Positions 29,501 through 58,912 of a stretch of 64,000 bases of DNA are shown piece after piece. Within the stretch, counting starts at the first letter, position 1. Every line of letters starts with the position of its first letter. The position numbers were made by a program, and so were the translations under genes. Under the pieces are notes generated by a model, which was given only the letters and a program-made list of their open reading frames with translations, made no database searches and was not told where the DNA came from. The DNA comes from Rosistilla carotiformis (lineage in GTDB: Bacteria > Planctomycetota > Planctomycetia > Pirellulales > Pirellulaceae), in NCBI RefSeq assembly GCF_007753095.1, contig NZ_CP036348.1, positions 1,426,001 to 1,490,000 of the forward strand, read 5' to 3'.

Positions 29501-30571
29501 CTAAATACCTGGGACTGCGGAACTGAAACCGAAGCGAATGAATGTCTTGATTGTACCCAGCGTATAGGTAAGCGGGGTCTCTTCGATACTGACAAGATCA
29601 TTAGGGGCGAGACGAATATTTGCCGGCCCCCCCTTCTTTGCGTCTCGAATCGACGCTTCGATAACCACCTCCGAATCATCGGGCCGCTTTCGGATGATCT
29701 TCACCTTGTTCGCTAGGGATTCGCTGAGTCCCCCCGCCTGGCTGATGGCATCCATCAGACGCATATCGCCATCCTTGGGCATCACAATCATATCGGATTG
29801 TCGTACGAGCCCGGTCACATTCACAAACCGTTCCGGCTTTTCGTAAATCATCACGACACTGCCGTCCACCAATTGCAAATGACTTTCGGGAACCTCATTC
29901 AATCGCAAAAGATCCATTTCAAACTGATCGGGCACCGGCGGCGGTACCACCCCGTTTGGATACGATACCTGTTGGGTTTGCGCGATCGAAGCCAACCTCG
30001 CCCCCGTTCCAGGGGGATGCCTGATTTGCGCGACCGTATTAGCTGTTTCCGAAAAGCCCTCGGCCATACTAATGGCGGTCATCAAATCGCTACCGCCCAC
30101 AGGCAATTCATAGGTTTGGGGTTTGTTGACCGCACCGAGTACCGTGACCTGATTGGACCGCCGCTGTTCAATCCGCAACGTTACGTTCGGGGATACGTAA
30201 ACGCCTCGTCGGACCGATTCGAAAGCAAGCAATTTTTCCGCATCGGTAAGCCGCATCCCGGCTACGGGAACCGGGCCCACCAAGGGCACATTCAAAGAGC
30301 CGTCTTCCGCGACTCGAATCGTCCACTCGGGTGGTTTGTCCGTTTCAATGCCTGTTGCAAACGTAACAATCACCGCATCGCCTGGGGTCAAGCGATCGGA
30401 AGGCTGAACCGAGCCGGCCAGCGCCGTCATGTCAATCTTCTTTGCGTTGACAGTTTGCGGCGCGGCAAGATCTTGTGGCAGACTGGCCGCTTGGTAGTTT
30501 GCGGTCGAGCTGCAGCCGAATACGCTGGTCAACGTGATGAAGTACAACGATAGGGGAGCCACTGATTTCAT
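29501..30571 (-). CDS. SLBB-domain polysaccharide export lipoprotein
   Basis: A 356-residue exported protein. The ATG at 30571 gives a lipoprotein signal (YFITLTSVFGC), with Cys the lipidated residue. The Poly_export domain (RLTPGDAVIVTF, IRVAEDGSLNVPLVGPVPVAG) is followed by two SLBB-like units (VTVLGAVNKPQTYELP and FVNVTGLVRQSDMIVMPK). Wza-type relatives form the outer-membrane channel for capsule or exopolysaccharide. The next gene downstream starts about five bases after this stop. This protein is unrelated at close range to the second SLBB protein at 61-62.5 kb, so two export systems are present. Confidence 0.85.
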   Translation of the reverse strand: MKSVAPLSLYFITLTSVFGCSSTANYQAASLPQDLAAPQTVNAKKIDMTALAGSVQPSDRLTPGDAVIVTFATGIETDKPPEWTIRVAEDGSLNVPLVGPVPVAGMRLTDAEKLLAFESVRRGVYVSPNVTLRIEQRRSNQVTVLGAVNKPQTYELPVGGSDLMTAISMAEGFSETANTVAQIRHPPGTGARLASIAQTQQVSYPNGVVPPPVPDQFEMDLLRLNEVPESHLQLVDGSVVMIYEKPERFVNVTGLVRQSDMIVMPKDGDMRLMDAISQAGGLSESLANKVKIIRKRPDDSEVVIEASIRDAKKGGPANIRLAPNDLVSIEETPLTYTLGTIKTFIRFGFSSAVPGI

Positions 30572-30921
30572 GAAAATGGAGTCCGTTCCATTGGATGCAT
30601 ACTGCTTCCGCACATCAACCCATCAAGGTGAGACGACAACCACTCTATATAGCCCCAAATCAAAACACAGCGAAACCCCGATCAAACAACAGAACTGGAT
30701 TTCCCGCAAGATTTGGAGGTAATGCACCGCAAGAAGGGCCCCCTTTCGTTACTTACCGATCTCAACAAGCCCTAGCACCATCCTGCAAGCACCGAGTCGA
30801 ATCATCGCGAACGAATTACATCGCACAAAGAACTACATGGGCACGCCTGAAAGCCAATCTTGAGTCCGACGCTCATCGTTGCAAAGCGATACAGATGAGA
30901 GATCCGCCTGACGTACAAACG
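30572..30921. other. Intergenic region between the SLBB gene and the rRNA operon terminator
   Basis: No gene is supported. A 124-aa plus-strand frame runs through it but ends inside the rRNA terminator and has no ribosome site. The promoter of the SLBB gene should be here; I see no clear consensus. Confidence 0.5.
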
Positions 30922-30965: not shown

Positions 30966-30970
30966 ATAAC

Positions 30971-31076
30971 CCGGCGATACCTACTTTCACGTTGGTATAC
31001 ACTATCATCGGCTCGAAAAGCTTAACTACTGTGTTCGAGATGGGAACAGGTGTGACCTTTTCGATATGGTCGCCGG
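30971..31076 (-). rRNA. rrf: 5S ribosomal RNA
   Basis: On the minus strand the sequence has CCGGCGACCATA at the 5' end, CCCATCTCGAACACAG in loop B/helix III, the conserved GTAGT-containing loop and GTAGGTATCGCCGG at the 3' end, which closes helix I with the start. About 106 nt; ends are approximate to a few bases. Confidence 0.93.
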
Positions 31077-31195
31077 AAAAGATTTGCTGCAGGTATTTCA
31101 CCACAGCAAACCTGAATTCTGGTAATTGGTAGAAGATCATCTAGACCCGTGTCGTAGACAGGATCCTAAAACGTTGTTGCGAGTGCAAGATATCG

Positions 31196-34046
<2,851 letters not shown>

Positions 34047-34573: not shown

Positions 34574-34646
34574 TGGAGGTGAACGGACTTGAACCGATGA
34601 CCCCCTGCGTGCAAAGCAGGTGCTCTCCCAACTGAGCTACACCCCC
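34574..34646 (-). tRNA. tRNA-Ala (anticodon UGC)
   Basis: A 73-base cloverleaf read on the minus strand: acceptor GGGGGTG pairs with the CACCTCC end, D-arm AGCTCAGTTGGGAGAGC, anticodon loop CTTTGCA giving TGC, T-arm GGTTCAAGTCC. CCA is not encoded. It lies 5' of the 23S gene, as in many rRNA operons. Confidence 0.95.
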
Positions 34647-34766: not shown

Positions 34767-34840
34767 TGGGTGTACCAAGATTCGAACTTGGGACCTCATC
34801 GTTATCAGCGATGCGCTCTAACCAACTGAGCTATACACCC
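34767..34840 (-). tRNA. tRNA-Ile (anticodon GAU)
   Basis: A 74-base cloverleaf on the minus strand: acceptor GGGTGTA with TACACCC, D-arm AGCTCAGTTGGTTAGAGC, anticodon stem CATCG/CGATG with loop CTGATAA giving GAT, T-arm GTTCGAATC. It is the first gene of the operon here; the usual 16S gene is not upstream. Confidence 0.95.
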
Positions 34841-37175: not shown

Positions 37176-37247
37176 TGCCCGATGGTGTAATTGGCAACAC
37201 AGTGGATTCTGGTTCCATCATTCTAGGTTCAAGTCCTAGTCGGGCAA
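37176..37247 (+). tRNA. tRNA-Gln (anticodon CUG)
   Basis: A 72-base cloverleaf: acceptor TGCCCGA pairs with TCGGGCA, D-arm GGTGTAATTGGCAACAC, anticodon stem GTGGA/TCCAT with loop TTCTGGT giving CTG, T-arm CTAGGTTCAAGTCCTAG, discriminator A. CCA is not encoded. It lies alone between hairpins and its own terminator. Confidence 0.93.
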
Positions 37248-38403: not shown

Positions 38404-39756
38404 CTAACGCGTCGACTTCGCCTTCAACCAGGTGGCATATTCTTCGACGGTGATCCGGGCGTCTTTGTTGGCGTCTGCGGGGGAGATGTCCAACAGCATG
38501 TCCTTCCATTCCGCCGCTGTCAGGACGCCGTCTTTGTTCTTGTCGCTGCGTTCGATGATCCGTTTGGCATAGCCGACATATTTGGGATCCAATGTCGCAT
38601 CGGAACCTGCTGCCGAGGGCGTTGCCGAAGCAGCGGGTTTGCTGGTGGTCGACGTCATCGCGGATTCCGAACGGACCGACGCGCTAGAACTGCTGGAAAC
38701 GCTGCTCCCCGGCGACGCTCCCGATTCGACGGCGCTGTAACATTCCGCAGCGGTAATCACACCGTCGGAATTGAGGTCGAATTTAAAGAAGTCGTGGATC
38801 AGATCGTCGTTCCAGACCGAAGCGTATTCGGCCATCATTACTTGGCCATCCTGGTCGCGATCACGCTCATTGAACCAGCCAGGTAGGCCGGCATCGGATT
38901 CGGCGACCATACGGCGATAGGATTTCCGGCCACCAAACGGATCTTCTTCGCTGGTAGGTTTCTTTTCTGGTTCGCGCCGTGCTTCACGGCGGCTACGTTC
39001 CTCCTTCACCTCCTCCTCGGTCACTCGGCGGCGCGCGTATCGGACAGCCAATTCGGCGGGGGACAGTCGACCGTCCCCGTTGCGGTCAAAGTCCAACGGA
39101 TTACCGAACCAATTTCCGCTCATTTCCTCTTTGTCGAGATAGCCATTTTTATTGCGATCGTAGCGTCCCATTCGTTCGGTCGCCGTCCGTTCATCGGCGG
39201 GCGTCACGCGGACGGCAAACAATTCCCCCGCGCTGCCAAATCCCGGTACGGGCTCCGCTGGCTTTTCGACGTCAAACCCCATCACCAAGAGGTCGAGTTC
39301 CATCGCCTCTTCGACTTCGCGGCGTTCTGCGTCGCGGTCTCTTCCGCGGTCACGGTCTCGATCGCTGTCGCGCCCCGAATCACGCTGCCCGCGCATTTTT
39401 TCGAATCCCTGTTTCAACGAGTCCAACGAAATCGGCTTCGACGTATCGATCTTGGGATTGTCACGAGCCATCCGGTCGAGCATGAATTTGGCTGGGCCCT
39501 CCATTTCATCGGTATCGATCATCCCATTGCCGTTGCGATCGAGCCGATCGATGAAGCTGGAAGGATCGAACCCGCCGCGGCCACCACGCCCGCCGCGGTC
39601 CCCCCCACGATCCCCGCGGTCTCCCCCACGATCCCCGCGGTCTCCCCCACGATCGCCGCGGTCCCCTCGACCAAACGGCGGTTGCGACCATCCGTCGGAC
39701 GCGATGATGGCGAGCAAGCAAACCAGCGAACCGATGCGAGCTTGTCGAGAGAACAT
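38404..39756 (-). CDS. Secreted multi-EF-hand protein with GDRGGDR repeats
   Basis: A 450-residue protein. The ATG at 39756 (MFSRQARIGSLVCLLAI) gives a signal peptide. A low-complexity Gly/Asp/Arg repeat follows, then at least seven EF-hand-like loops: DRNGNGMIDTDE, DRNKNGYLDKEE, DRNGDGRLSPAE, DRDQDGQVMMAE, DLNSDGVITAAE, DKNKDGVLTAAE and DANKDARITVEE, the last two being a C-terminal pair. A Ser/Ala-rich linker separates them from the rest. Such calcium-binding secreted proteins are typical of planctomycetes; the partner is unknown. It is 116 bases downstream of the PKS aminotransferase gene on the same strand. Confidence 0.8.
   Translation of the reverse strand: MFSRQARIGSLVCLLAIIASDGWSQPPFGRGDRGDRGGDRGDRGGDRGDRGGDRGGRGGRGGFDPSSFIDRLDRNGNGMIDTDEMEGPAKFMLDRMARDNPKIDTSKPISLDSLKQGFEKMRGQRDSGRDSDRDRDRGRDRDAERREVEEAMELDLLVMGFDVEKPAEPVPGFGSAGELFAVRVTPADERTATERMGRYDRNKNGYLDKEEMSGNWFGNPLDFDRNGDGRLSPAELAVRYARRRVTEEEVKEERSRREARREPEKKPTSEEDPFGGRKSYRRMVAESDAGLPGWFNERDRDQDGQVMMAEYASVWNDDLIHDFFKFDLNSDGVITAAECYSAVESGASPGSSVSSSSSASVRSESAMTSTTSKPAASATPSAAGSDATLDPKYVGYAKRIIERSDKNKDGVLTAAEWKDMLLDISPADANKDARITVEEYATWLKAKSTR
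39598..39665 (-). repeat. 21-bp tandem repeat encoding GDRGGDR
   Basis: About three near-identical 21-base units (7 codons) in a row, differing by single bases such as the last unit's GATCG. They lie inside the EF-hand gene, keep the frame and are typical of slippage-prone coding repeats. Edges are approximate. Confidence 0.8.
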
Positions 39757-39872
39757 GCTGAAAAATCCTGAAGGCAACAAAAATTAGACGATCTTGGAAT
39801 CAAGGCGCAGCGCACCACCGATTTTAACCCTGCCCGGGCCGCAGGGTTCCGCAAATCTAAGCTGGTATTTCG

Positions 39873-42800
39873 CTATTGCTGGCCGATGGCTGCATATTCG
39901 GGAGCGGGTGCGCTTCGCGGCGGTTGCAGCATCGCGAGTCCTTCGTCGATCGATTGCTCGATTTTCACGGCCAATTGCCGCACGAACGGATCGACCATCA
40001 GGCCGGCCGGATAGGCTTCCATGCGATGGTATTCCGCTCCTTCGACAGCTTCCAATTCCGTCCCAAGATGGCATTTGTAGTCGCGGCGGGGCCGGAAATG
40101 GACGATCCGCCCCGGGTAGGGCTTGGGAACATACGCCTCGCAAATCGCGTCGTGCTGTCGCCACAGATCGGCCATGTTGACGGTCGCCCCGATCCGCCGC
40201 GGTTTCTTTTTCGAGAACATTCGAGCGATCGAACCCCGCCAAACCTTGGTGCGGACGCCCAGCGAATGGAGCTTGGACGACAGGAACAGCCGTTTTTCCT
40301 GCGAATTCAGCAGCAGGAAGTTCCGCAAATGGAACTCAACGCGTTGGCGGCCGTAGCTGAGTTTCGTCGCCGTGGTCGGATTGGTCGATGGAGCGGTCAT
40401 CCAGTTGTAGGTCTCGATCATTGCGAGCATCGCGACCTGTTCGCCAGCGGCGGTCAATTGTTGGGCGATTTCAAGCGCAACAGTGCCGCCAGAACAATAG
40501 CCGGCCAATAGATAGGGCCCGTGCGGTTGGACTTCGCGAATTTCCCGCACCAATCCGGCGGCAAACTCTTCCAACGTATCGGCGATCGGCAGCCCCAAGA
40601 CGCCGGGCGAATTGAGTCCATACAGCGGCTGGTCTTCTCCCAAATGATCGGCCAACGCGTGGTAGATCATCGTCAATCCATCGGCGGCGGGAGTGCAGAA
40701 CAGCGGGGTGCGATCCCCTTCGGGCTGGATCTCGACGAGCGTCGAGATCCAAGAATCACTGGCGGGCGAGCTGACCGCTGGTAAAGCGACGCTGCTAGCC
40801 TGCGTCGCTATCGACTTTTTTTTTTCGTCGGACTCGCAAACGTCCGACGCGGCAACGGGATCGGGGAAGAAACCGCCGCGGCGGATCTCCAAGCAGCTCT
40901 CCTGAACCGCATTGATCACGTGCGCGATGTCTTCATCGGAATGTTCGGTCGAGAGGAAACAATTGTCTCCCCAACCGCGAGTGAAGACGCCGCGATCCAA
41001 CATGTGGAAATACAACATGTCGGCGTATTCCAGATCGGGCGGGAACATGAATCGGAACTGAGAAGCGAATTGAGCGACGCGGATCGGGAACTGTTCTCGC
41101 TCAAAAAATGCGTTTAGCGTTTGCACCAGACGCGTCGTCTTGTCGGTCAGTTGTCGCTGCAGTGCGGGCCCTTCCTCTTTTAGCTTCATCAGCACCTGAT
41201 GCGCCGCAGCCAAGCCCAGCGGGTGCCGGACAAACGTGCCGGCGAAGAAGGTCATGTCGGCTTCGGGTTCCGAATCGTCTTCGAACTTCCACGTGCCGCC
41301 ATCCAGGGCATCCATGTATTTTCGCGAACCGGCCAACGCGCCGATCGGCATTCCGCCGCCGAGGATCTTGCCGTAGGTCGACATGTCGGCCCAGACATCG
41401 AACCATTCTTGAGCTCCTCCTTGAGCGGCTCGGAATCCGGTGATCACTTCATCCATGATCATCGCCATGTTCTTTTCGCGAGTGATCCGGCGAATCGCTT
41501 GCAGGAATTCCTTCGGCTGCAAAAACGGATCGGCACTTTGGACCGGTTCGATCAGGACCGCGGCGATCTCATCGGATCGCTGCTCGATCACCTGCAGGGC
41601 TTCGGGCGTTCCGTAATCCAGCACGATCGCGTTGTCGGCAAAAGTTTGAGGGACACCGGGAGCGGCGGGGGAGGAGATTCGGCGATCGCCGATTCGGCTG
41701 GATCGACATAAGACTTGGTCGAAGTTGCCGTGGTAGTCCTTATTAAAGTAGACGAACTTCGATTTGCCGGTCACCGTCCGGGCCAATCGCAGCGCCGCCA
41801 TGACCGCTTCGGAGCCGGTGCAGCAGAACGTGGCGCGTTCTTTTCGCGAGAAGTCGCACAACAATTGAGCGACTTCGCCAGCGATCGCCGACTGCGGGCC
41901 AACTTCCACTCCACGATCCAATTGTTCGTGCAACGCTTTGGTGACGAAGTCGGGGGATTGGCCGAACAGGTTCAATCCGAAGCCCATCGCGATGTCGACG
42001 TATTGGTTGCCGTCGATGTCCCACAGCTTGGAACCCTTGGAGCGTTCGACAGCGATCTGATAGACCATCGACTTCCAAATCCGGCGGTATCCCGCCACGC
42101 CGCGTGGATCGGCAAAGTGGTCGCGGTGCGTTTGAGCGTGCTGACGCGATTTGGCGGTCCGCCGCGTGAAGCGGTCCATGAATTGATTCAGGTGCTGTTG
42201 CTGTTGGTCGGTCAAACCGTTGTTGGTCCCTTTGCGAACCGGTTTGTAGGGACCAAAGCGTTCGAATTTGTTGACAGGCTTGGGAGCCGGGGCGATCGCC
42301 GCGGAAGCGTCGCCAACGCAAGATTGCCCGTTGTTAGACGCGCAGCTTTGGCTGGCACCGGCGTCGACGGCGACTGACGATGGAGCAGGGATTGCCAGTG
42401 CGGCGGCGATCGGTTGTGCAACAGGTTGTGACGCTGGCATCGCTGCTGCCGCCGGCATCACGGGGCTGGCTGGCATCGGTTGACCGGTCAGCATCGCCAA
42501 ATGCGAAGCCATCAATGCGTTGTGTTGTAGGATGATCTGTTCGACTCCGCTGACGCTGGCCACGGGGCCGCTGTAGGTGACCGTTGCGGCAGGGGCTGCG
42601 ATCGGCGTGATCGTTGCGGCTGGCAACGGTTGCGGGGGCGCTGGGATCATCGCCGTGGCAGGTTGCGGCGGCGCTACCGCGGCAACCACAGGAGCCGTCG
42701 GCGCGGCTGGTTGTACTTCGACCACCGGGGCTGCCGGTGTCGCCACAGGTTCCGGTTGTGGCGTTGGTTCCACGACTGGTTCTGCGACGGCAGGGGCGGT

Positions 42801-43097
42801 GACGGGTGCCGGCGTTTCGGGAGCGGGAACTGCTGCGGGGGCAGGCATTTGATCGACCAAGTGGGCGATCAACGCATCGACCGACGTGACCTCTTCGATC
42901 AACTGGCGGAACGAGACCTTGACCGAAAACCGCTGCTTGATCTCTTGGCTCAATTGGATCAGGAACAACGAATCGAAGCCGAGTTCCATGAAGGTCGCGT
43001 CGCGATCGAGATCTGCGATTTCATAACCGGTCCGCTCGCGCAGCAGTGTCGAAAGCGTGTTTTCAACGTGGGTAAAACCGGGGTCAAGTCGATCCAT
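39873..43097 (-). CDS. PKS protein: ACP - aminotransferase - thioesterase
   Basis: A 1074-residue multidomain protein. ACP domain, residues 8-82, with the phosphopantetheine Ser43 in LGFDSLFLIQLS. A Pro/Ala-rich linker (85-275) contains a helical stretch VEQIILQHNALMASHLAML. A class III PLP aminotransferase covers about 320-745 (GSE at 428-430, Asp549 in MDEVITGF, PLP lysine Lys577 in STYGKILGGG), as in PKS modules that place an amino group at the beta position. A thioesterase covers about 785-1050. Its elbow is GYCSGG, so Cys868 rather than Ser occupies the nucleophile position, and the usual C-terminal GDHxxM site reads PAGLM (Pro1030), so the catalytic His is apparently missing. It is 25 bases downstream of the KS-AT gene. 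Confidence 0.88.
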   Translation of the reverse strand: MDRLDPGFTHVENTLSTLLRERTGYEIADLDRDATFMELGFDSLFLIQLSQEIKQRFSVKVSFRQLIEEVTSVDALIAHLVDQMPAPAAVPAPETPAPVTAPAVAEPVVEPTPQPEPVATPAAPVVEVQPAAPTAPVVAAVAPPQPATAMIPAPPQPLPAATITPIAAPAATVTYSGPVASVSGVEQIILQHNALMASHLAMLTGQPMPASPVMPAAAAMPASQPVAQPIAAALAIPAPSSVAVDAGASQSCASNNGQSCVGDASAAIAPAPKPVNKFERFGPYKPVRKGTNNGLTDQQQQHLNQFMDRFTRRTAKSRQHAQTHRDHFADPRGVAGYRRIWKSMVYQIAVERSKGSKLWDIDGNQYVDIAMGFGLNLFGQSPDFVTKALHEQLDRGVEVGPQSAIAGEVAQLLCDFSRKERATFCCTGSEAVMAALRLARTVTGKSKFVYFNKDYHGNFDQVLCRSSRIGDRRISSPAAPGVPQTFADNAIVLDYGTPEALQVIEQRSDEIAAVLIEPVQSADPFLQPKEFLQAIRRITREKNMAMIMDEVITGFRAAQGGAQEWFDVWADMSTYGKILGGGMPIGALAGSRKYMDALDGGTWKFEDDSEPEADMTFFAGTFVRHPLGLAAAHQVLMKLKEEGPALQRQLTDKTTRLVQTLNAFFEREQFPIRVAQFASQFRFMFPPDLEYADMLYFHMLDRGVFTRGWGDNCFLSTEHSDEDIAHVINAVQESCLEIRRGGFFPDPVAASDVCESDEKKKSIATQASSVALPAVSSPASDSWISTLVEIQPEGDRTPLFCTPAADGLTMIYHALADHLGEDQPLYGLNSPGVLGLPIADTLEEFAAGLVREIREVQPHGPYLLAGYCSGGTVALEIAQQLTAAGEQVAMLAMIETYNWMTAPSTNPTTATKLSYGRQRVEFHLRNFLLLNSQEKRLFLSSKLHSLGVRTKVWRGSIARMFSKKKPRRIGATVNMADLWRQHDAICEAYVPKPYPGRIVHFRPRRDYKCHLGTELEAVEGAEYHRMEAYPAGLMVDPFVRQLAVKIEQSIDEGLAMLQPPRSAPAPEYAAIGQQ

Positions 43098-43122
43098 TGC
43101 TATTCTCGAGACAGTTCTTTGA

Positions 43123-46089
43123 TTAGGTGCGTCGTGTTTGGTTTAGCAGCGTCATCTGTTGGTTCATCAACTGCATCTGCTGTTGGATCACCGTTTGGGC
43201 GACGCTGGTCGTGTGAGTTGCCAGAGGTTGTTGCGGAACCGCCGTGGCAGCCTGTTGGGCGACCGGCGGTTCGGCAGCCACTTCGACGGCGGCGGGTTGC
43301 GGCGCCGGTCGTGGTTGCGGTTCGGGCTCCGGTGTTGCTGGCTTTTCGGTCGACGCAGCAACGTTCTGGTCGCGACGGGTTTGGCAACGCTGCAAGTCGG
43401 TTTCGAACGAATACCGTTGGCGTTCAAAGCGATACATAGGCAAGTGTAATCGCGATCTCAATTCACCCGCGTAGACTTTTGTCCAATCGAGCGTGACGCC
43501 TTGTTGCCACAACCGTCCAATCGTTGTAACCGTAAACCTTGTGTCGGTTGCCGTCTGGCTGACATGAGGCAGCGACGAAAGCACATGTTGGCGGTTCGTG
43601 TCCAACGGTTGCTGCCGCGCCAAGGTGCTCAAGGCTTGGTTGGGGCCAACTTCCAAGAGGACCAAATCGCCCGAATGCTGTGCGATCAATGCGGCCAAGG
43701 CGTCGGAGAAGCGAACCGGTTCGCGGATCTGACGCGCCCAATAGACCGGATCGGTCGCGGTGGCGGCATCCATCGGCAGCGCTGTCACCGAAGAAACGAT
43801 CGGGATCGTCGGCGGATGCAATTCGATTTTTCGGACTTCCTGTTCGAACGGCTCGATCGCCGCGTCCATCATGCGGGAATGGAATGCGTGGGAGGTTCGC
43901 AGCGTGCGACAGGCGATGCCTTCGCCGTGTCGGCCCGCTTCGATCTCGGCGGCGAAAGCCGTGACGGCTTCGCTTGGGCCGGAGACGACACAGAACGCGG
44001 GGCCGTTGCTCGCTGCAATCTCGAGCGCTTCTGGCAGCAACGGCTGCAAACGCTCCTCTGACAATTGGACCGCCAGCATCGAACCCGCTGGCAGCGACTG
44101 CATCAACCGGCCGCGAAGGGCTACCAGTCGAGCGGCATCTTCCATCGACATCACGCCGGCCAAGGCGGCGGCCGCGAATTCGCCAACGCTGTGCCCGATC
44201 AGCGTCGTCGGCTGGACGCCTAGCGATTGCCACCATTTTCCCAACGCCCAAGAGATCATGAAGAGCGCGGGCTGCGCGATTTCGGTTTGATCCAAGCGAT
44301 CGCTCGGCGGGGCGTCGGCGGCTGGAAAGACGAGCGTGCGAAGGTCGAGCTCCAGATGCGGCGTCAAGCATTCTGCACAGGCATCCAGATGTTCGGCGAA
44401 GACAGGTTCGGTTTCGTAGAGGGCGCGGGCCATGTCGATATGCTGCGATCCCTGGCCGGGGAACAGGAACGCAATCGGTGTCGCGGTGGCGCGATTGTCG
44501 ACGGTCGGCGCCTGCTTGGGGCTGCGCGAGCGGAGCGTTTCTACAGCTTCGGCTAGGTCGCTGGCGACGACGACACGTTTGTGGCGGAACGTCTTGCGGC
44601 CCACTTGCAGCGTGTGGCTGACGTCGGCCAGGTTCAGATCGTTGTTGTCGGCAAGGTGTTGCGCCAAGTCGTCGCTCATTTGATTGAGCGCGGAGAGCGA
44701 GCGAGCCGATAGTCGGATCAGATGGCAGGGACGCGACGACGCCAGCGATTCGGAAGCGGGAGCTTCTTCGATTACCAAGTGGGCATTGGTTCCACCGACA
44801 CCAAAGGAGCTGACGCCAGCGCGTCGCGGTCCGGTGAGAGATTCCCAATCGGTCAGTTCATCGTTGATGATAAATGGACTGTTAGCGAAGTCGATCTTCG
44901 GGTTGGGCGATTTGAAATGGAGCATCGGCGGGATCTGGCGATGCCGCAGTGCCAAGCTGGTTTTGATCACGCTGCTGACGCCTGCGGCGACATCCAGGTG
45001 CCCGACGTTGGTTTTTAGCGATCCGATCCGACAGAACTGCTTCTTGTCGGTCGTCTCGCGAAACGCTTCGGTCAACGCTGCGACTTCGATCGGATCGCCG
45101 ACGAGGGTGCCGGTTCCGTGGGCTTCGACGTAGCTGATCGTATCGGCGGTGATCCCCGCGCGGCGATGGGCCAGTTTGATCGCAGTCGATTGTCCGGAGA
45201 CGCTCGGCGCGGTGTAGCCCATTTTATCGCCGCCATCGTTGTTGACTCCCCAGCCGCGGATCACGGCATAGATGTCGTCGCGATCGGCGATCGCATCGCT
45301 CAGCCGTTTCAGCACGACGGCGCCAACTCCGTCGCCAAAGATCGTCCCGCAGGCGTCGGCGTCGAAGGTGCGACACGATCCATCGGGTGAAAGGATCGAG
45401 TCTTCGGTGTGCAGATATCCTTGCTGCTGCGGAAACGTGACGGTCACTCCGCCGCTGATCGCCATGTCGCACGAACGGGCCATCAGGTTTTCGCAAGCTT
45501 GCGAGATCGCCACCAGCGAAGTCGAACAAGCTGACTGAACGGCGACGCTTGGTCCACGTAAGTTCAGTTGGTAGGCGACTCGCGTGGCGAGATAGTCTTT
45601 GTCGTTGGAGATCTCCGCGGTCAAGCTGCCGCCGGGATACGAATCGGCCAGCGACTCGCGGAACTCCGCATCGGCGGCCAGTCGTGTGAAGATGTAAGTG
45701 TTCATGTGGCAACCGGCAAAGACACCGACGCGGCCGGGAGCTGCATCGGGGACGTAGCCGGCGTTTTCCATCGCGTGCCAGGCCATCTCCAAGAACAAGC
45801 GATGCTGCGGATCCATGTCGACAGCTTGCTTGGGATAGATGCCAAAGAATTGGGCGTCGAAGAAGTCGGCGTCTTTGACGACTGCGGCTCGCGGAACGTA
45901 ATTCGGATGCGATGGAAGGCTGCTGTTCGGGTTATGCCCCGCCGGGACGTCGGTTACCCCGCTGACACCGGCGGCCAAGTTTTCCCAAAACGCTGGGGCA
46001 TCTTCTGCACCAGGAAACCGTCCGGCGAGACCAATGATGGCAATACCGTCGACTGCCGGTGCGGAGTGTGGTTCCGAATCATTGTTCAT
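43123..46089 (-). CDS. Type I polyketide synthase: ketosynthase - acyltransferase
   Basis: A 988-residue protein. KS domain, residues about 14-440, with catalytic Cys188 (SACSTSL), His324 (EAHGTGT) and His364 (KTNVGHLDVAAG). AT domain, about 535-850, with GQGSQ at 545-549, nucleophile Ser634 (GHSVGEF) and HAFH at 734-737, the malonyl-CoA-type signature. A post-AT LPMYRFERQRYSFE segment follows. The Pro/Ala-rich tail ends in an amphipathic helix VAQTVIQQQMQLMNQQM resembling the one in the partner's linker, possibly a docking element. KR, DH and ER are absent, so the beta-keto group is left for the aminotransferase in the next gene. Confidence 0.95.
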   Translation of the reverse strand: MNNDSEPHSAPAVDGIAIIGLAGRFPGAEDAPAFWENLAAGVSGVTDVPAGHNPNSSLPSHPNYVPRAAVVKDADFFDAQFFGIYPKQAVDMDPQHRLFLEMAWHAMENAGYVPDAAPGRVGVFAGCHMNTYIFTRLAADAEFRESLADSYPGGSLTAEISNDKDYLATRVAYQLNLRGPSVAVQSACSTSLVAISQACENLMARSCDMAISGGVTVTFPQQQGYLHTEDSILSPDGSCRTFDADACGTIFGDGVGAVVLKRLSDAIADRDDIYAVIRGWGVNNDGGDKMGYTAPSVSGQSTAIKLAHRRAGITADTISYVEAHGTGTLVGDPIEVAALTEAFRETTDKKQFCRIGSLKTNVGHLDVAAGVSSVIKTSLALRHRQIPPMLHFKSPNPKIDFANSPFIINDELTDWESLTGPRRAGVSSFGVGGTNAHLVIEEAPASESLASSRPCHLIRLSARSLSALNQMSDDLAQHLADNNDLNLADVSHTLQVGRKTFRHKRVVVASDLAEAVETLRSRSPKQAPTVDNRATATPIAFLFPGQGSQHIDMARALYETEPVFAEHLDACAECLTPHLELDLRTLVFPAADAPPSDRLDQTEIAQPALFMISWALGKWWQSLGVQPTTLIGHSVGEFAAAALAGVMSMEDAARLVALRGRLMQSLPAGSMLAVQLSEERLQPLLPEALEIAASNGPAFCVVSGPSEAVTAFAAEIEAGRHGEGIACRTLRTSHAFHSRMMDAAIEPFEQEVRKIELHPPTIPIVSSVTALPMDAATATDPVYWARQIREPVRFSDALAALIAQHSGDLVLLEVGPNQALSTLARQQPLDTNRQHVLSSLPHVSQTATDTRFTVTTIGRLWQQGVTLDWTKVYAGELRSRLHLPMYRFERQRYSFETDLQRCQTRRDQNVAASTEKPATPEPEPQPRPAPQPAAVEVAAEPPVAQQAATAVPQQPLATHTTSVAQTVIQQQMQLMNQQMTLLNQTRRT

Positions 46090-46132: not shown

Positions 46133-47479
46133 TTAAATCGATCGGCTGATCTTGCCAGCGGAACGTTTGGATTTGGAGGCGTGAAAGCTGGCGTACCAGT
46201 TGCCGTGTCTGGAGTGTTTGGCGTGAAAGCCGCGGCCACGGGCGTTCCGGTGTCCCTGTCGCTCCTGGCGGGTTTGTTTACCGTCACTCTCGGTCGACAT
46301 GGCCATCGGCGCTGTCGCTGTGCCGGTCGTGGACGTCGTGTCATCGGTGACCGATGTCTCTTCATCGCTGGACGTTGTAGACTGGGCAACGACGTTGTCT
46401 TGATCGTCGCTGGCCGACGTGTCGCTCGTTTCCGATCCTGTGTCCGTGTCGGTTTCTGTAGCGGTTGTCGTCGAAGCTTCCGTGTTGCAGATCAAGACCT
46501 CTTCGGAGTTCGTTGTGTCTGAATCGGCTTCGGCGACCAAAACTTCGCTGTCGTCGATAACGTTTTCGTCGGTTGCGACTTCTTCGCTGGTGCTGTCGTC
46601 AGTGGCGACCGCGTCTTCGGTCGCGCCGGTGGAATCGGTTTCCGAGACCAGGACTTCACCGTCGTCGACGGTGGTTTCGTCGGTTGCGACTTCTTCGCTG
46701 GTGCTGTCATCGGTGGCGACCGCGTCTTCGGTCGCGCCGGTGGAATCGGTTTCCGAGACCAAGACTTCACTGTCGTCGGCGGTGGTTTCGTCGGTTGCGA
46801 CTTCTTCGCTGGTGCTGTCATCCGTGGCGACCGCATCTTTGGTCGCGCCGGTGGAATCGGTTTCCGAAACCAGGACTTCACTGTCGTCGGCGGTGTTTTC
46901 GTCGGTTGCGACTTCTTCGCTGGTGCTGTCGTCGTCGGTGGCAACCGCGTCTTCGGTCGCGCCGGTGGAATCGGTTTCCGAAACCAGGACTTCACTGTCG
47001 TCGGCGGTGGTTTCGTCGGTTGCGACTTCTTCGCTGGTGCTGTCGTCGTCGGTGGCAACCGCGTCTTCGGTCGCGCCGGTGGAATCGGTTTCCGAAACCA
47101 GGACTTCACTGTCGTCGGCGGTGGTTTCGTCGGTTGTGACTTCTTCGCTGGTGCTGTCGTCGTCGGTGGCAACCGCGTCTTCGGTCGTCTCGGTGGAATC
47201 GGTTTCCGAGACCGGGGCTTCGCTGTCGTCCGAATTCGAAGCTTGCGCTTCACCTTCGCTTGACATCTCGTGGGTGCTACGTGAGCAGACGACGGCGGAT
47301 GTGGAGGCTTGCGTCTCGGTGGACTCTTCCGACGTTTGATCGCTGTTTGTGTCGGCTGTTTCCTGAACGGAGGCGGAGCCCTGAGCGGAGGCGAAAGCCG
47401 ATGCGCTCAAAAGGGTGCGAGGTTCAAGTGTTTCACTGGCGTTGCGTCGGAGTCGGTTGGTGCGTTTGGGAAAATTCAT
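46133..47479 (-). CDS. Acidic tandem-repeat protein with an LEPRTLLSA N-terminus
   Basis: A 448-residue protein. The ATG at 47479 (MNFPKRTNRLRRN) is preferred over 47530. LEPRTLLSA at about residues 20-28 is the LEPR-type motif seen at the N-terminus of many planctomycete surface or exported proteins, after a basic RxLRR stretch. The body is very acidic: six units of 37-38 residues (VSETDSTGATEDAVATDD...), then Thr/Ser/Asp-rich sequence. The last 50 residues switch to a basic, His-rich tail (GRGFHAKHSRHGNWYASFHA). It ends 44 bases before the PKS KS-AT gene on the same strand, so co-transcription is plausible. Function is unknown. Confidence 0.75.
   Translation of the reverse strand: MNFPKRTNRLRRNASETLEPRTLLSASAFASAQGSASVQETADTNSDQTSEESTETQASTSAVVCSRSTHEMSSEGEAQASNSDDSEAPVSETDSTETTEDAVATDDDSTSEEVTTDETTADDSEVLVSETDSTGATEDAVATDDDSTSEEVATDETTADDSEVLVSETDSTGATEDAVATDDDSTSEEVATDENTADDSEVLVSETDSTGATKDAVATDDSTSEEVATDETTADDSEVLVSETDSTGATEDAVATDDSTSEEVATDETTVDDGEVLVSETDSTGATEDAVATDDSTSEEVATDENVIDDSEVLVAEADSDTTNSEEVLICNTEASTTTATETDTDTGSETSDTSASDDQDNVVAQSTTSSDEETSVTDDTTSTTGTATAPMAMSTESDGKQTRQERQGHRNARGRGFHAKHSRHGNWYASFHASKSKRSAGKISRSI
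46538..47212 (-). repeat. Six tandem 111-114-bp coding repeats
   Basis: Six in-frame units fill exactly 675 bases: three of 114 bases (38 aa) at the 5' end and three of 111 bases (37 aa) at the 3' end, the shorter ones missing one Asp codon from a GAC/GAT run (DDDST versus DDST). Several units differ by only a few bases. This suggests recent unit duplication and possible length variation between strains. Confidence 0.9.
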
Positions 47480-48000
47480 CGTTGGGGTCTTTGTAGATGC
47501 TTTGGGGGCGGTAACCTCGCCTCCATGCAACCAGGATCATTAACGCGTCATGCGTTGTCGTCATCTTGGTTACCTTGCGTTGGTAATCCTGGAAATACTA
47601 GGACGATCGCCACGGTTTTTCCAAAAAAACGGATCGTATTGGCTGAGTCCGGTGGGGATCGTTGTCCCCACATTCTTCTGCAGAGGGGTGCAGGAGAGGG
47701 GGGGCGTGTCGCGGAGGGCGAATGCCGTAAGGGAGCACTGGGGAGATGCTCGGTCTCCGCCCGGCGGGCGTGTTGCGTTGCCGCACCGCAGTGGCGCGGA
47801 TGTGGAGAATTTGCAACGCGGTTTGATGCGTCGCTGCATCAGCCGAGTTCCTGTTGAATGATCGCTTTTGTCTCTAAGTGCAACTACTGTAAAGGGTTAC
47901 GCTGTTTTTGTGAGGCTTTTTCGGCAGTCTGGCATCCATCGTGCTTTTATCCCCCTCCGTCCCACACACGATCCAATGCACCGGGAGAGAGGAAAACACC
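47480..48000. other. Divergent region upstream of the sigma factor and repeat-protein genes
   Basis: Both promoters should lie in these 521 bases. A GTGGGGA/TCCCCAC hairpin sits at 47652-47671. No open frame here has a good ribosome site, and I find no clear -35/-10 pair. Confidence 0.45.
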
Positions 48001-50676: not shown

Positions 50677-53049
50677 TTAAACGCTGGCCGATGAGACGGG
50701 GCGCGGTTGCGGCTTCGAGGAATACGACTTGGTGTACTGGGTTGCATAGCCATATTCATAAGGCTTGACGTATTCGCCGTAGCCAAAGTTCTTATCGCCT
50801 CGCTCGGCTCCATTGACAATGATTCCCGCCACTTTGATTTTGTTCGAAGTGAGCAATTCACGGGATCGCTCTACCGGTCGGCGGCCATTCTTTTGCACAC
50901 GGACCACCATCAGAACCGTATCGGCCTGAGCGGCGATGATCAATGGATCGGCGACCGCCAACAAGGGTGGAGAGTCGATAAACACAAAGTCGTAATCTTG
51001 TCTCGCTTCGGCAATCAGCGTTTCCAACGCGAAGGACTCCAGTAGCTCTGCAGGTTCACTGGCATGATGCCCATGGCAGATGAAATCAAGTCCTGGGATT
51101 TCAGATGATACGGTCACCTCTTCCAGCGAAGCGTCGCCCATCAAGTATTCGGCAAGTCCCTTCGGATGCTGAATTCCTAACAGTTTGTAAAGTGTGGGGC
51201 GTCGAAGGTCCGCGTCGATCAGTAGGACACGTTTGCCTGCTTTGGCGATCGCTGCGGCAACGTTAACCGTCATCGTGGATTTTCCATCACCGGGCATGGG
51301 GCTGGTGACTTGGATCACGTTTTCATCGGTTTGGCCGGTGTGTACAAACAAGCTTGTTCTGGCCATCGTCAACACTTCCGACTCGACGCTGTGCGGTGCG
51401 AAGACGGTGCGGCATAGAGGGCTAAGCGACGACTGCTTCGCAGCCTTCTTTTCCTTTCGCGTAACTTGAAAACGTGGAACATGGGCAATCACGTTTGCAT
51501 TGAGCGAACGCTCCAAGTCGCTTGGGTCGCGGAATGTTTGATCCGCGTATTCGGCCCAGAAAGCAAGCAGGCCGCCAACCAACAAACCGGCGAGAGCGCC
51601 GTTCATCAGGATCTTCGATAGCTTAGGCCAAATTTGCCCACCGACGCCCGGTGGCGAGAGGAGATCGATCGTAAATCCGGCATAGTCGGAGGTTAATTCC
51701 AGTTCCTGAAGGCGTCCCATGATCACATCGTAGCGTTGCTGAGCGCGTGTCATTTTGGCTTTCAACGCCGTCCCCTCCAGGAACTCCGATTCCGCGGCTT
51801 TTGCTGCGACACGAACCGTCGCGGCTTCTTCCATCAAATGTTGTTGTCTTTTGCTCAGGTCTTTAATGTCGTTATTCAGCAGAGTGGAGAACGCAGTTAG
51901 AATTTGTGACGGAGTCATGCCCGAGGAAACAATTTCTTCCAGCCCTGTCGGTGCTTTCTCGTTGATATAATTTCGAACCGAAGTGAGCTCGTCGCGTACC
52001 CGTTGAACCAGTGGATGTTCATCTCCATAGTCGGCTGTTAAGGCTTGTTCGCGAAGCATTAAGCCCAGCACTTTGGTGTGTTCCAAATTGATGGCTGCCG
52101 CGCGAAGCGGATCTTCGCGCGATGCGCCGGTAGACCCTACATCGCCATTGGCGATATCCATGAAGAATTTTAGACGATCAGCGTCGCGGGCGTTCAGGAG
52201 TGCCAGACGTTCAATGTCCATCTGCTCTTGGTCGCTTCCAGAGGCTTCGATCTCGGCGATGCTTTCAAGCTTCGATTTTGCGTAGACCAATTGCGAACGA
52301 ACTTCTGCGATTTCTTGTTCGAGCGTCTGCAAGCGGTCATGGGAGACGCTGTGCAGTTGTTCGCCATCGAGCATGCCGACCGACGTTGCCAGGAAGGCGG
52401 TGTACGCTTGTGTGGCGTCCTGGAGTTCCTGTTCGTTTGTCGCTTGAGCTTGGATGATCAATGCTGCCGCTTCTTCGCCGACATTTTGCGTACGCGATTC
52501 GATGTGGTGACAGTAACGCTCGTAAACCACTTCCAAAACATACTCGGCATCTTCGGGATCGGAACTTTGGTACGTCACCTGAAGAACACTTGCGCCTTGG
52601 GAACCACCCGCCCCACCGCGTTGGATGTTCAGGTTTCCACTCAGCAGGCCCAGTGCCGAGTTTCCTTCGCGACGGGCAGCGACAAACGAATCGAGATCGG
52701 AAAGATTTCCGACTTCGATTGCATCGTTCAAGATCATCGGACTTTTGAGTAGTGCGATGTGAGTTGCGAGCAAGTCCGCTCGGACCACACTGGCATCAAA
52801 ACTGCGTCCGTTGGGGGAATTGCTTGTCATCAATTCCGATGCGCGTTGAGACACCAGAATGTCCATGCTCGACTGATAAACCACTTTCGTGTTTTTGTGG
52901 TACGCGTAGGCGATGCCGAGCCCCACCACCAAACCAAACAGCAGCAGCGGCCAACGGCGACGCAAAATACGCGTAACGTCGCTGGGGGGCGAGTCAAGCA
53001 TCCCATCGGCTGGGAATGCGATCTCTTTCGTGGAGTGATTGGTCTGCAT
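50677..53049 (-). CDS. BY-kinase / Wzc-like exopolysaccharide tyrosine autokinase
   Basis: A 790-residue inner-membrane protein. TM1 lies at about residues 32-50 (WPLLLFGLVVGLGIAYAY), followed by the Wzz domain, a long coiled-coil GNVR-like region, and TM2 at about 475-495. The cytoplasmic kinase domain has Walker A (SPMPGDGKSTMTVN, about 580-593), Walker A' (VLLIDADLRRPT) and Walker B (FVFIDSPPLL). The C-terminus is a tyrosine cluster (GYGEYVKPYEYGYATQY, about eight Tyr), the usual autophosphorylation tail. It controls polymer length and export. It lies 361 bases downstream of the truncated ligase copy on the same strand. Confidence 0.93.
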   Translation of the reverse strand: MQTNHSTKEIAFPADGMLDSPPSDVTRILRRRWPLLLFGLVVGLGIAYAYHKNTKVVYQSSMDILVSQRASELMTSNSPNGRSFDASVVRADLLATHIALLKSPMILNDAIEVGNLSDLDSFVAARREGNSALGLLSGNLNIQRGGAGGSQGASVLQVTYQSSDPEDAEYVLEVVYERYCHHIESRTQNVGEEAAALIIQAQATNEQELQDATQAYTAFLATSVGMLDGEQLHSVSHDRLQTLEQEIAEVRSQLVYAKSKLESIAEIEASGSDQEQMDIERLALLNARDADRLKFFMDIANGDVGSTGASREDPLRAAAINLEHTKVLGLMLREQALTADYGDEHPLVQRVRDELTSVRNYINEKAPTGLEEIVSSGMTPSQILTAFSTLLNNDIKDLSKRQQHLMEEAATVRVAAKAAESEFLEGTALKAKMTRAQQRYDVIMGRLQELELTSDYAGFTIDLLSPPGVGGQIWPKLSKILMNGALAGLLVGGLLAFWAEYADQTFRDPSDLERSLNANVIAHVPRFQVTRKEKKAAKQSSLSPLCRTVFAPHSVESEVLTMARTSLFVHTGQTDENVIQVTSPMPGDGKSTMTVNVAAAIAKAGKRVLLIDADLRRPTLYKLLGIQHPKGLAEYLMGDASLEEVTVSSEIPGLDFICHGHHASEPAELLESFALETLIAEARQDYDFVFIDSPPLLAVADPLIIAAQADTVLMVVRVQKNGRRPVERSRELLTSNKIKVAGIIVNGAERGDKNFGYGEYVKPYEYGYATQYTKSYSSKPQPRPVSSASV

Positions 53050-53410
53050 GGCGATGGTTTTTTGGAGTTGCGAGTTGGAGGCGAAGTGAAGTTCGACATC
53101 GGCAAGCTGACATTGGGGATTGCGCGTACCTGTTCAATATCCCAACGCGAACGGAAATGCGCTGTGGCGAAATGTTTCTCGCAACACTGACAGGTAGCCC
53201 GATCATATAAATTCTCCTCTATCCCCACCCTCCCCTGCGTGGCGGGTGCGGTGCGTTGGATTGGCTACGTTGTCTTGTCTGCCCGCAGGGATAGTATTAA
53301 CAGCTTGTTGTGCGTACGCAAGTAGTAAAATTGGCGGTGTCGTTGATTTGTCGTATTGTTAAATCGATTGCATCGCAAAGGAAAACCTAGACGCCTTTCC
53401 GAGGATGGAA
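53050..53410. other. Gap between the truncated ligase copy and the BY-kinase gene
   Basis: These 361 bases contain a TGCGTACGCA palindrome at 53311-53320 and nothing else I can support. The kinase gene probably has its own promoter here. Confidence 0.5.
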
Positions 53411-55351
53411 TTAACGCGGTTCGCGGTTTCTGCGCAGGCGTTCGATCGTGTGAAACAGGGAGTCAACCTGATGCTGTCTGGCTCCCAGCGAGCCAGCGAC
53501 AATTGCTTGGTCGTAGGCAGCAATCTCATTCCCCAGTTTCAAGTGCGCAGCGGAGAGACGAACGCGAAAGGTCGGGTTTGACGTGTCACCTTGAACCGCT
53601 TCTCGCCAATACGTGATGGCCTGTTGCCAATCGGACTGCTGTTCTGCGAGCTGGGCGCGCCCTGCCGCACGCTCCGCATCCGATAGACTTTCATCCGATT
53701 GAAGTATGTCGATGCAGCGGGCTGTCCAGAGCGACTGGGGTTCGCGCATTGATGGGTCGCGCTGGGCCCGCCCAGCCATCGCCAGCAATAGGGCGATGTT
53801 GTCAGGAAATAGTTGGTTTACGATCGTTTCGGGGGGCCAGCGTCGGTGGGCAAGTGCCAGTATCGTGTCCGCACGTTGGCTAGAGACGGTGAGATAGCGG
53901 TTCCAAAGCCGGATCGCGGCTTCCGAATCATCCGTTAAGTAGTGCAGTAAGCCAGCAGCGTAGATATGCTCTGGATTGCTGTGTGCCAGTTGCGCTAAGT
54001 TGGTTCCCCAGTGCTGCCAAGCGTTGTTCGAAATAGGTGCGAGCATCGCCAGTGCAAGGTGACTTTGCGGTGAAAGAGGGTTGCATTGGACTGCACGCTG
54101 CAGAGAGTGATTCACATCGCGCATCAATCGCTGATCGGTAGGCGAAGGGAAGAGGGCTGCCAGGGATTGCGAGTGTTGTTTCGAAGGCATGTTCGCAAAC
54201 ATCGAAAACCAGTGTAGCGTGGTTTGATGTTGCCAAGCTTTATCGAGTTGGTTGGGGGCTTCCTGTTTCGCTGCTTTCAAGCGAAGTTCGGCAAGTTGCC
54301 ACCAAGCATAGCGTTGCCAAGCGGCGACATTGTCGGGCATCGCATCGGTTAAACGTCGCAGTTTGTCCTGGTTTTTATTGCACTGATCCAATGTTGGAGT
54401 GACGGTCTCCATTGGAATTTCAGTTGCCGATAAAATATTGTCCGATTCAACTTCTTTGCGAAGCAAATATTGGCTGAGTTGCAGTGGTGCCACAGCTAGC
54501 AGGAGCCATATGAATCCGTTGGCTCCCGTTGTCGGGTACGGTGCGCCACCCACCGCAAGCCTTGAGGAATCTTTTCGTGATTCGGCGGTTGCTGGGCAGC
54601 CAAGAACCGCGCCAAATATCAGCCCACATGTCAAAAGATTTGCAGGATAGGTGATCACGAAATCGACACTGCTTTGACAGACAATTGAGGCCAAGACAAA
54701 ACACCCTGCCGCTCCGATCGCCATTTGCCCCGGATCGGAGCTCTGGGTGAACACGGTCCAGCATCGCCGCGCCAACAACAGGATTCCCAACAGAACGATG
54801 GCGACGCCAAGCAATCCGCTTTCGGTCAAAACTTCGAGGTATTGGTTATGGGCGTTGCGGTACCACGAATCGGTATCGCGGTTTTTGAAGGGGAGATGGG
54901 CGAAGCCATAGGTGCCGACACCAGAGCCGAGCGGTAGATAGTGAATTGCAGCGGCGGATCCCGCAGCCCAGTGTTCGAAACGGTCGTCGGCAGAAATTCG
55001 TTGAGCCGAAAGATCTTCTGAACGTTTTTCCAGCGAATCCTGCTGGGAGAGAAACCATGTTGCTGCAGCCATCCCCGCAATCGAGATCAGCGCAACGCCC
55101 ACCACGGACCGCCAACCAATGCCGCGCAGACCAACGCTTGAAATCAAAACGGTCGCGATCAGTACAGAAGCCCTGGCTCCGCGAGAAAACGATAATAGAA
55201 CAGCAAAGCCGATCACCATTACCAACGAAATCGAAACGACGACTGGCAGGTCGGTCCAGTATCCGCGCCGACTGTAGGAATCCCAAACTTGAGTCGAGCG
55301 TTCACGTTCAAAGGTCCAGAGTCGTTTGTCTGCCAAAACCCAAATCAACAA
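53411..55351 (-). pseudogene. O-antigen-ligase/TPR protein lacking its N-terminal third
   Basis: A 646-residue open frame matching residues about 292-957 of the intact ligase at 55993-58725. RRGYWTDLPVV, GSGVGTYGFAHLPF and NAHNQYLEVLTESGLLG align with GGYWTDLPVV, GSGIGTYGFAHLPF and NAHNQYLEVLTESGILG. The first membrane helices are missing. The only in-frame starts near the junction are TTG, just inside it, with an in-frame TGA upstream. It then ends at the point where an SLBB fragment begins on the other strand. Identity to the intact copy is moderate and no internal stop is seen, so a shortened protein could still be made. Confidence 0.7.
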
Positions 55352-55355
55352 CCCG

Positions 55356-55802
55356 ATGCTTCAACCATCGGACATCATTCTCGAGGAAGGCGATATTGTG
55401 GTTGTGGAAGCTCGGGACACCGAATTTTTCTACACTGGTGGCCTTCTGCATGGCGGTCAGTTTCCGATCCCACGCGATTATGACTTAGATGGTGTGGGTG
55501 CCATGGCGATCGCAGGTCAAGGTCTCGGAGCTGCTGGTCAATCACCAGGAGGTGGCGGAATGTTGGGTGGCGGCTTTGCTGGTGCGTCCCCGACTCAGCT
55601 ATACGTCATACGAACCACTCCGTGCGGCGACCAATTCAATATCGCCGTGGACCTGAACAAGGCACTCAATGACAACTCCGAACGGTTGATGGTCCAGCCT
55701 GGTGATACCCTGATTCTGCGGTACAAGCCGTGCGAAGAGTTGGTCAACTTTAGTCTGGTGACCTTCTTCACCTACGGTATTACCGAACTGTTCAGAAATT
55801 AA
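55356..55802 (+). pseudogene. 3' fragment of an SLBB polysaccharide export gene
   Basis: Encodes 148 residues (MLQPSDIILEEGDI ... TYGITELFRN) that match the C-terminal third of the 467-residue export protein at 61153-62556, with roughly eight amino-acid differences in 143, most DNA differences being synonymous. It lacks the signal peptide, lipobox and export domain. Homology starts at about 55358, within a few bases of where the ligase copy starts on the opposite strand. It is therefore a remnant created by deletion. It may be silent. Confidence 0.85.
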
Positions 55803-55992
55803 GATTGGCAACGAATCGTAAGATGCGTGGAGAACGTTCGGCGCTGGTTGGATTGTTGGCACTTGCAGCGCCCAGGTGTTTGTAGCCCGCCTCGGTGGCG
55901 TTGCTGGGGGGCTTCAGTGGCGTTCTGCAGGTTAGGAATTCGACGCCATCGTTAGTTGCAAATTCATTCAGAGGATGATGGGGGAAACCTGG

Positions 55993-58725: not shown

Positions 58726-58912
58726 CGCGTTGGGAGGTCTGGTGGATGAAAGTGTGAGACGAAGGGCAGGAAGGTGAGGTATCCGTTGATAGCTGGATGC
58801 GACCAAAAGAAAAAAACTCCGCAGCAAGCCAGACGTGGATGCTACGGAATTTGAACTGTTCCACAAAACGGGATTCTTAGATGGCTATCCCCTGAGTTGC
58901 AAAGGATACGAC

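Follow-up and report, generated by a model that had tools for sequence, protein, structure and literature searches.

Organization of the gene pair

Two adjacent minus-strand genes for a polyketide synthase (PKS) lie in the window, the 64,000-nt stretch analysed here from a closed 7.44 Mb planctomycete genome (Table 1). Both open reading frames are intact, and a gap of 25 bases separates them. In the protein of gene 1, Pfam matched a ketosynthase (KS, E 7e-70), KS_C, the KS-AT linkers and an AT domain (8e-58); the KS is N-terminal, with no docking or loading domain ahead of it. In the protein of gene 2, the matches were an ACP (4e-12), a class-III aminotransferase (AMT, 2e-50) and a thioesterase (TE, 7e-23). 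The motifs QSACST, EAHGTGT and NVGHL of the KS, GHSVGE and HAFH of the AT, GFDSL of the ACP and GKILGGG of the AMT, including its PLP lysine, are all kept, and the AT is of the malonyl type by established rules. The Pfam scan found no KR, DH, ER or MT domain in either protein. A sequence-only reading of this DNA had claimed a complete minimal module spread over two adjacent genes, with an aminotransferase in place of KR, DH and ER. The intact frames, Pfam matches and motifs bear out the first claim and the Pfam scan the second, and they support reading the gene pair as one complete minimal PKS module carried by two proteins.

Table 1 Features of the gene pair and their positions in the window.
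Feature	Position	Strand	Basis
Gene 1, KS-AT protein, 988 aa	43123..46089	-	ORF, Pfam, motifs
Gene 2, ACP-AMT-TE protein, 1074 aa	39873..43097	-	ORF, Pfam, motifs
KS domain, C-H-H triad, QSACST active site	44755..46053	-	Pfam, KS tree, motifs
AT domain, GHSVGE and HAFH, malonyl-type	43510..44478	-	Pfam, motifs
C-terminal tail motif of the KS-AT protein, VIQQQMQLMNQQMTLL, candidate docking element	43144..43191	-	Motif comparison; second copy of the ACP-AMT linker motif
ACP domain, GFDSL phosphopantetheine serine	42858..43058	-	Pfam, motif
ACP-AMT linker motif, IILQHNALMASHLAML	42489..42536	-	Motif comparison
Class-III PLP aminotransferase domain, MycA type; PLP lysine at 41367-41369	40860..42197	-	Structure match, trees
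TE domain with changed catalytic residues	39918..40748	-	Pfam, alignment, predicted fold

The same gene pair occurs in two congeners at 96-97% identity. Purifying selection acts on every domain, with dN/dS values against the congeners of 0.006-0.008 for the AMT, 0.009-0.051 for the TE and about 0.07-0.085 for the KS and AT; the ACP-AMT linker gave 0.26-0.35. Since the congener copies are kept at this identity and the KS, AT, AMT and TE stay within 0.006-0.085, the gene pair is not a product of chance.

A conserved split family in Pirellulaceae

We searched 199 Pirellulaceae genomes for this family and then read the loci of the closer relatives. The window genus (three species) and 11 other Pirellulaceae genomes share the cut between AT and ACP, and the AMTs of nine split loci, including that of the window, form one clade with 100/100 support. 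The split is therefore an old, conserved trait of a Pirellulaceae family and no peculiarity of this locus. The sequence-only reading had called both the split point and the leading ACP of the second protein unusual; this holds against MycA-type modules but not within the family.

Across the split family, the KS is preceded by FkbH-ACP, by adenylation-PCP or by no loader at all, which shows an apparent exchange of loaders. The genomes G044 and G123 carry KS-AT / ACP-AMT-TE without a loader, like the window genus, while G177 and G067 carry FkbH-ACP-KS-AT / ACP-AMT-TE and G053 carries A-PCP-KS-AT / ACP-AMT-TE. A longer second protein is found in G126, with the Pfam-confirmed layout FkbH-ACP-KS-AT / ACP-AMT-C-A-PCP-TE, and in G102, G155 and G212, which were judged by sizes and hits matching those of G126. 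In G079 and G192, an FkbH-like match and the split are seen, and gene 2 runs off the end of the locus.

The relatives at loci L009-L034 come from many phyla (Pirellulaceae, Bacteroidota, Lysobacter and others) and are mostly single chains of A-PCP-KS-AT-ACP-AMT. In their other layout, an NRPS C-A-PCP protein lies upstream of KS-AT-ACP-AMT; NRPS partners follow downstream. The split family is best explained by descent from the aminotransferase modules of such PKS-NRPS hybrids, and the window genus appears as its stripped-down form, with neither a built-in loader nor an NRPS module. In the literature searched, of which the coverage was partial, no enzyme with the layout KS-AT / ACP-AMT-TE was described.

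A second copy of the linker motif

In the unsplit modules, a motif like VIxQQLQLMxQQLxLL sits once, between ACP and AMT. The split modules carry IIxQQNxLMxxQLxLL at this place and a second copy at or near the C-terminus of the KS-AT protein, located 2 to 20 residues from the end in all 12 split KS-AT proteins tested. Using a scoring matrix trained only on seven unsplit ACP-AMT linkers, we obtained 15 to 39 bits for these tails (12/12), values that none of 2000 shuffles reached; the 12 tails are homologous and do not count as 12 independent events. With the same matrix, the AT-ACP linkers of unsplit modules all fell below -3 (14/14). The two copies differ consistently at position 6, which is hydrophobic in the KS-AT tail and Asn in the ACP-AMT linker.

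We infer that the doubled motif is a candidate docking element joining the two halves. Since its hydrophobic moment was not above that of shuffles in an amphipathic-helix test, we name the element a motif only, and a helical mode of docking is inferred. An Acidobacteriota locus (L010), considered as an independent split with a doubled motif, gave a weak score of 4.5 bits, a value reached in 11 of 2000 shuffles, and its KS falls in another clade; it was not counted.

Changed catalytic residues in the thioesterase

The AlphaFold2 model of the TE (mean pLDDT 75) has the alpha/beta-hydrolase TE fold. Its nearest structures are 7dxo/7crn, AB3403 and NocB, and EntF was also matched. The TE domain that had been claimed thus stands as a fold, by sequence and by prediction, but its usual catalytic residues are missing. 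In the alignment on which this residue pattern rests, Cys868 (40494-40496) takes the Ser position, with GYCSGG instead of a GxSxG serine; Glu895 (40413-40415) takes the Asp position after beta-6; and PAG 1030-1032 (40002-40010) lies where a canonical TE has its His, before the last helix.

These changes run through the family. Ten split-family TEs were read from end to end. All have Cys at the nucleophile position, within a strictly kept GYC[SL]GG, and all but one have PAG in the segment of the canonical His, the exception having PAA. Where the TE directly follows the AMT (six cases), the acid is Glu; in the four cases with a longer second protein, it is Asp. Since the six Glu TEs form one clade, the replacement of Asp by Glu is read as one change, not six. 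The TEs of G062 and G181, which join the split-family TE group at 89/90, have Cys with the His kept (PHAM) and suggest an order for the changes. The series looks like a stepwise loss of the triad, from Ser-Asp-His through Cys-Asp-His and Cys-Asp without His to Cys-Glu without His. The literature searched, again with partial coverage, described no Cys TE that lacks the canonical His. A Flavobacterium TE (L027:16737-19427) combines a Cys nucleophile with Asn in place of the canonical His, a case that seems to be separate from the Pirellulaceae family.

The sequence-only reading had proposed malonyl condensation, transamination of the beta-keto thioester and release of a beta-amino acid. The first two steps are still the best reading, but the third is weakened. 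Given the replaced Ser and Asp and the missing canonical His, plain hydrolysis to a free beta-amino acid is the weakest step of the scheme, and since that His is missing, release may not take place on the gene 2 protein.

Ordinary hydrolysis could still take place if Cys868 and Glu895 worked with another His as base, for example the lid residue His923 (40329-40331), to give a free beta-amino acid. The predicted TE fold, the invariance of His923 in all ten family TEs, the strong purifying selection on the domain and the existence of Cys TEs elsewhere (AB3403, SulM and ObiF; PMC11298585) agree with such a route. However, a conserved PAG/PAA replaces the canonical His in 10/10, and His923 is also found in several canonical TEs that retain their normal His; we consider this route possible but somewhat unlikely.

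An inactive, structural TE, with another enzyme (an acyltransferase or a type II TE) taking the beta-aminoacyl chain from the ACP in trans, would fit the alteration of all three triad positions, and a free-standing TE does lie near an orphan FAAL at 7.434 Mb in the same genome. A dead domain would scarcely call for Cys, rather than an inert residue, at the nucleophile position in 10/10, for the strictly kept motif around it, or for the low dN/dS given above, and this alternative, too, seems to us doubtful.

We favor a Cys TE that passes the chain on. Speculatively, the chain would move to the Cys by transthioesterification, and an amine or hydroxyl, either its own or that of an acceptor, would then attack, in place of Ser-His-Asp hydrolysis. 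The changed triad series makes the activity of such TEs a directly testable question.

Loading and genomic surroundings

The statement that no loading enzyme lies in the window was confirmed, as no adenylation or FAAL domain was found in the 64,000 nt. FkbH-type enzymes load a glyceryl group from 1,3-bisphosphoglycerate onto an ACP (PMC7489565). The FkbH-bearing members of the family should make 3-amino-4,5-dihydroxypentanoyl-ACP, a prediction that cannot be extended to the window genus. An FkbH elsewhere in the genome as loader in trans was rejected, as none was found in the complete genomes G000 (the present one), G001, G002 and G044 or in the draft G123. A possible loader is the orphan FAAL-ACP at about 7.43 Mb (L118:14888-16996), which lies beside a free-standing thioesterase with no PKS module directly adjacent. 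The congeners encode a close counterpart of this protein; G044 and G123 do not. At about 5.35 Mb, the same genome also encodes a FAAL-ACP fused to a class I/II aminotransferase (L131:3383-6787), and FAAL proteins of similar length were found in 8/8 genomes searched.

On both sides, the pair is flanked by genes for polysaccharide export, a Wzz-kinase fusion and two Wzy_C ligases (29501-30613, 50677-58866 and 61153-62556). If the pair served exopolysaccharide assembly, a beta-amino acid would be moved to an amino sugar or another surface polymer. Polysaccharide-type neighbors recur at three other loci: XrtA-type amidotransferase and glycosyltransferase genes at G044 and G123, with a NodU-like gene at the former and a FemAB gene at the latter, and flippase, glycosyltransferase and carbamoyltransferase genes at G212. 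However, no such genes were seen at the loci of G102 and G155, as far as read, and polysaccharide genes could just be frequent in genomes of this kind. We treat the neighborhood as a lead only, and a role in exopolysaccharide assembly as unlikely.

Just upstream of the pair, a minus-strand gene (46133-47530) encodes a protein of low complexity, marked by the N-terminal motif LEPRTLLSA and by 5.9 tandem copies of a 114-bp repeat. This RTLLSA-type protein was rejected as part of the system, being absent in the congener G001. Directly downstream lies an EF-hand repeat protein (38404-39780, minus strand) that is kept in the congeners. The window also contains 23S and 5S rRNA genes (30969-34045, minus strand) and tRNAs at 34574-34646, 34767-34840 and 37176-37247; no 16S rRNA gene was found in the scanned 28-50 kb stretch.

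Identity of the ketosynthase and the aminotransferase

In the KS tree, the window KS falls in a 100/100 clade with the KSs of other AMT modules, with which it shares a QSACST-like active-site context, and five more PKS KSs encoded in this genome lie outside it. A second KS tree again gave the AMT-module clade 100/100. A grouping with non-elongating KSs would have spoken against the module; with the C-H-H residues kept and both trees placing it among AMT-module KSs, the window KS reads as an elongating one. In the AMT-module KSs of Rhizobium (L030, L011, L014 and other loci), the EAHGTG and N-GH strings were absent as searched, and their active sites are possibly altered.

The best solved structure for the AMT is the MycA aminotransferase 6kfm (449 bits, E 1e-133), compared with 192 bits (2e-55) for the best glutamate-1-semialdehyde aminomutase (GSAM) structure. 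In a tree of 72 sequences, the window AMT groups with MycA and with AMTs carried by PKS/NRPS proteins in a clade of 33 members at 100% support, and the GSAMs stand across a long branch. The hemL model scored 261 bits, below its cut-off of 527 bits. A GSAM identity, which had been named as the outcome that would tell against the scheme, was rejected on these grounds. That the domain is a stray GSAM, fused by chance and inactive on an ACP-bound chain, is highly improbable: GSAM models do give high subfamily-level scores, but the tree and the MycA scores disagree, the genome has a separate GSAM-like gene at 2.427 Mb, and the AMT has a dN/dS of 0.006-0.008.

Proposed mechanism and comparison with known systems

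We propose that the two genes form one split, non-reducing, aminating PKS module. The KS would be charged with an acyl group by a trans-acting donor, the AT of gene 1 would load malonyl onto the ACP of the gene 2 protein, and the KS would condense the two across the protein boundary. The AMT would then convert the beta-keto thioester to a beta-aminoacyl-S-ACP, and the Cys thioesterase-like domain would receive the chain from the ACP and pass it on. We consider this full scheme, with its trans acyl donor and Cys TE hand-off, likely. The chemistry as far as beta-aminoacyl-ACP is well supported by the sequence, from which the malonyl extender and the beta-amination are predicted.

A broader reading extends the scheme to the family: the duplicated motif would hold the halves together, the Cys TE, which lacks the canonical base, would release by amine or hydroxyl attack to give a beta-lactam, a lactone or a surface sugar bearing a beta-aminoacyl group, but no free acid, and loaders would be exchanged among FkbH glyceryl, an amino acid and a trans donor. 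As a whole, this reading is quite improbable.

What is new beyond the module itself is the conserved split family, the second copy of the linker motif and the unusual TE. The pair is a predicted minimal natural beta-aminating PKS of two proteins of about 1000 aa; since its cut point is defined and comes with a candidate docking motif, it is useful for engineering.

The closest characterized likeness is the MycA (mycosubtilin synthase)/iturin-type module, which has the same KS-AT-ACP-AMT set and order; beta-amination of the beta-ketoacyl-ACP is put as a common feature, for the window pair as a prediction from its sequence. However, MycA is a single chain in which FAAL-ACP precedes the module and NRPS follows it, whereas the window module is cut between AT and ACP, lacks a loader and ends in a TE. 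The A-PCP-KS-AT-ACP-AMT hybrids share homologous KS, AT, ACP and AMT domains and the same ACP-AMT linker motif with the window pair, but they are unsplit, loaded by adenylation, followed by NRPS modules and, where a TE is seen, mostly of the Ser type. The FkbH members (G177, G067, G126 and others) share the split, the tail motif, the 100/100 AMT clade and the Cys TE with PAG, and differ in having FkbH-ACP ahead of the KS; some also have an NRPS module preceding the TE. Among thioesterases, SulM, ObiF and AB3403 likewise place a Cys nucleophile on an alpha/beta-hydrolase TE. AB3403 combines it with Asp at position I, and SulM, which makes a beta-lactam, has a Cys-Asp-His triad (PMC11298585). 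The SulM/ObiF type pairs its Cys with a His and with an acid at position II, after beta-7. Compared with SulM, the window TE lacks the His at the canonical site and has Glu at acid position I.
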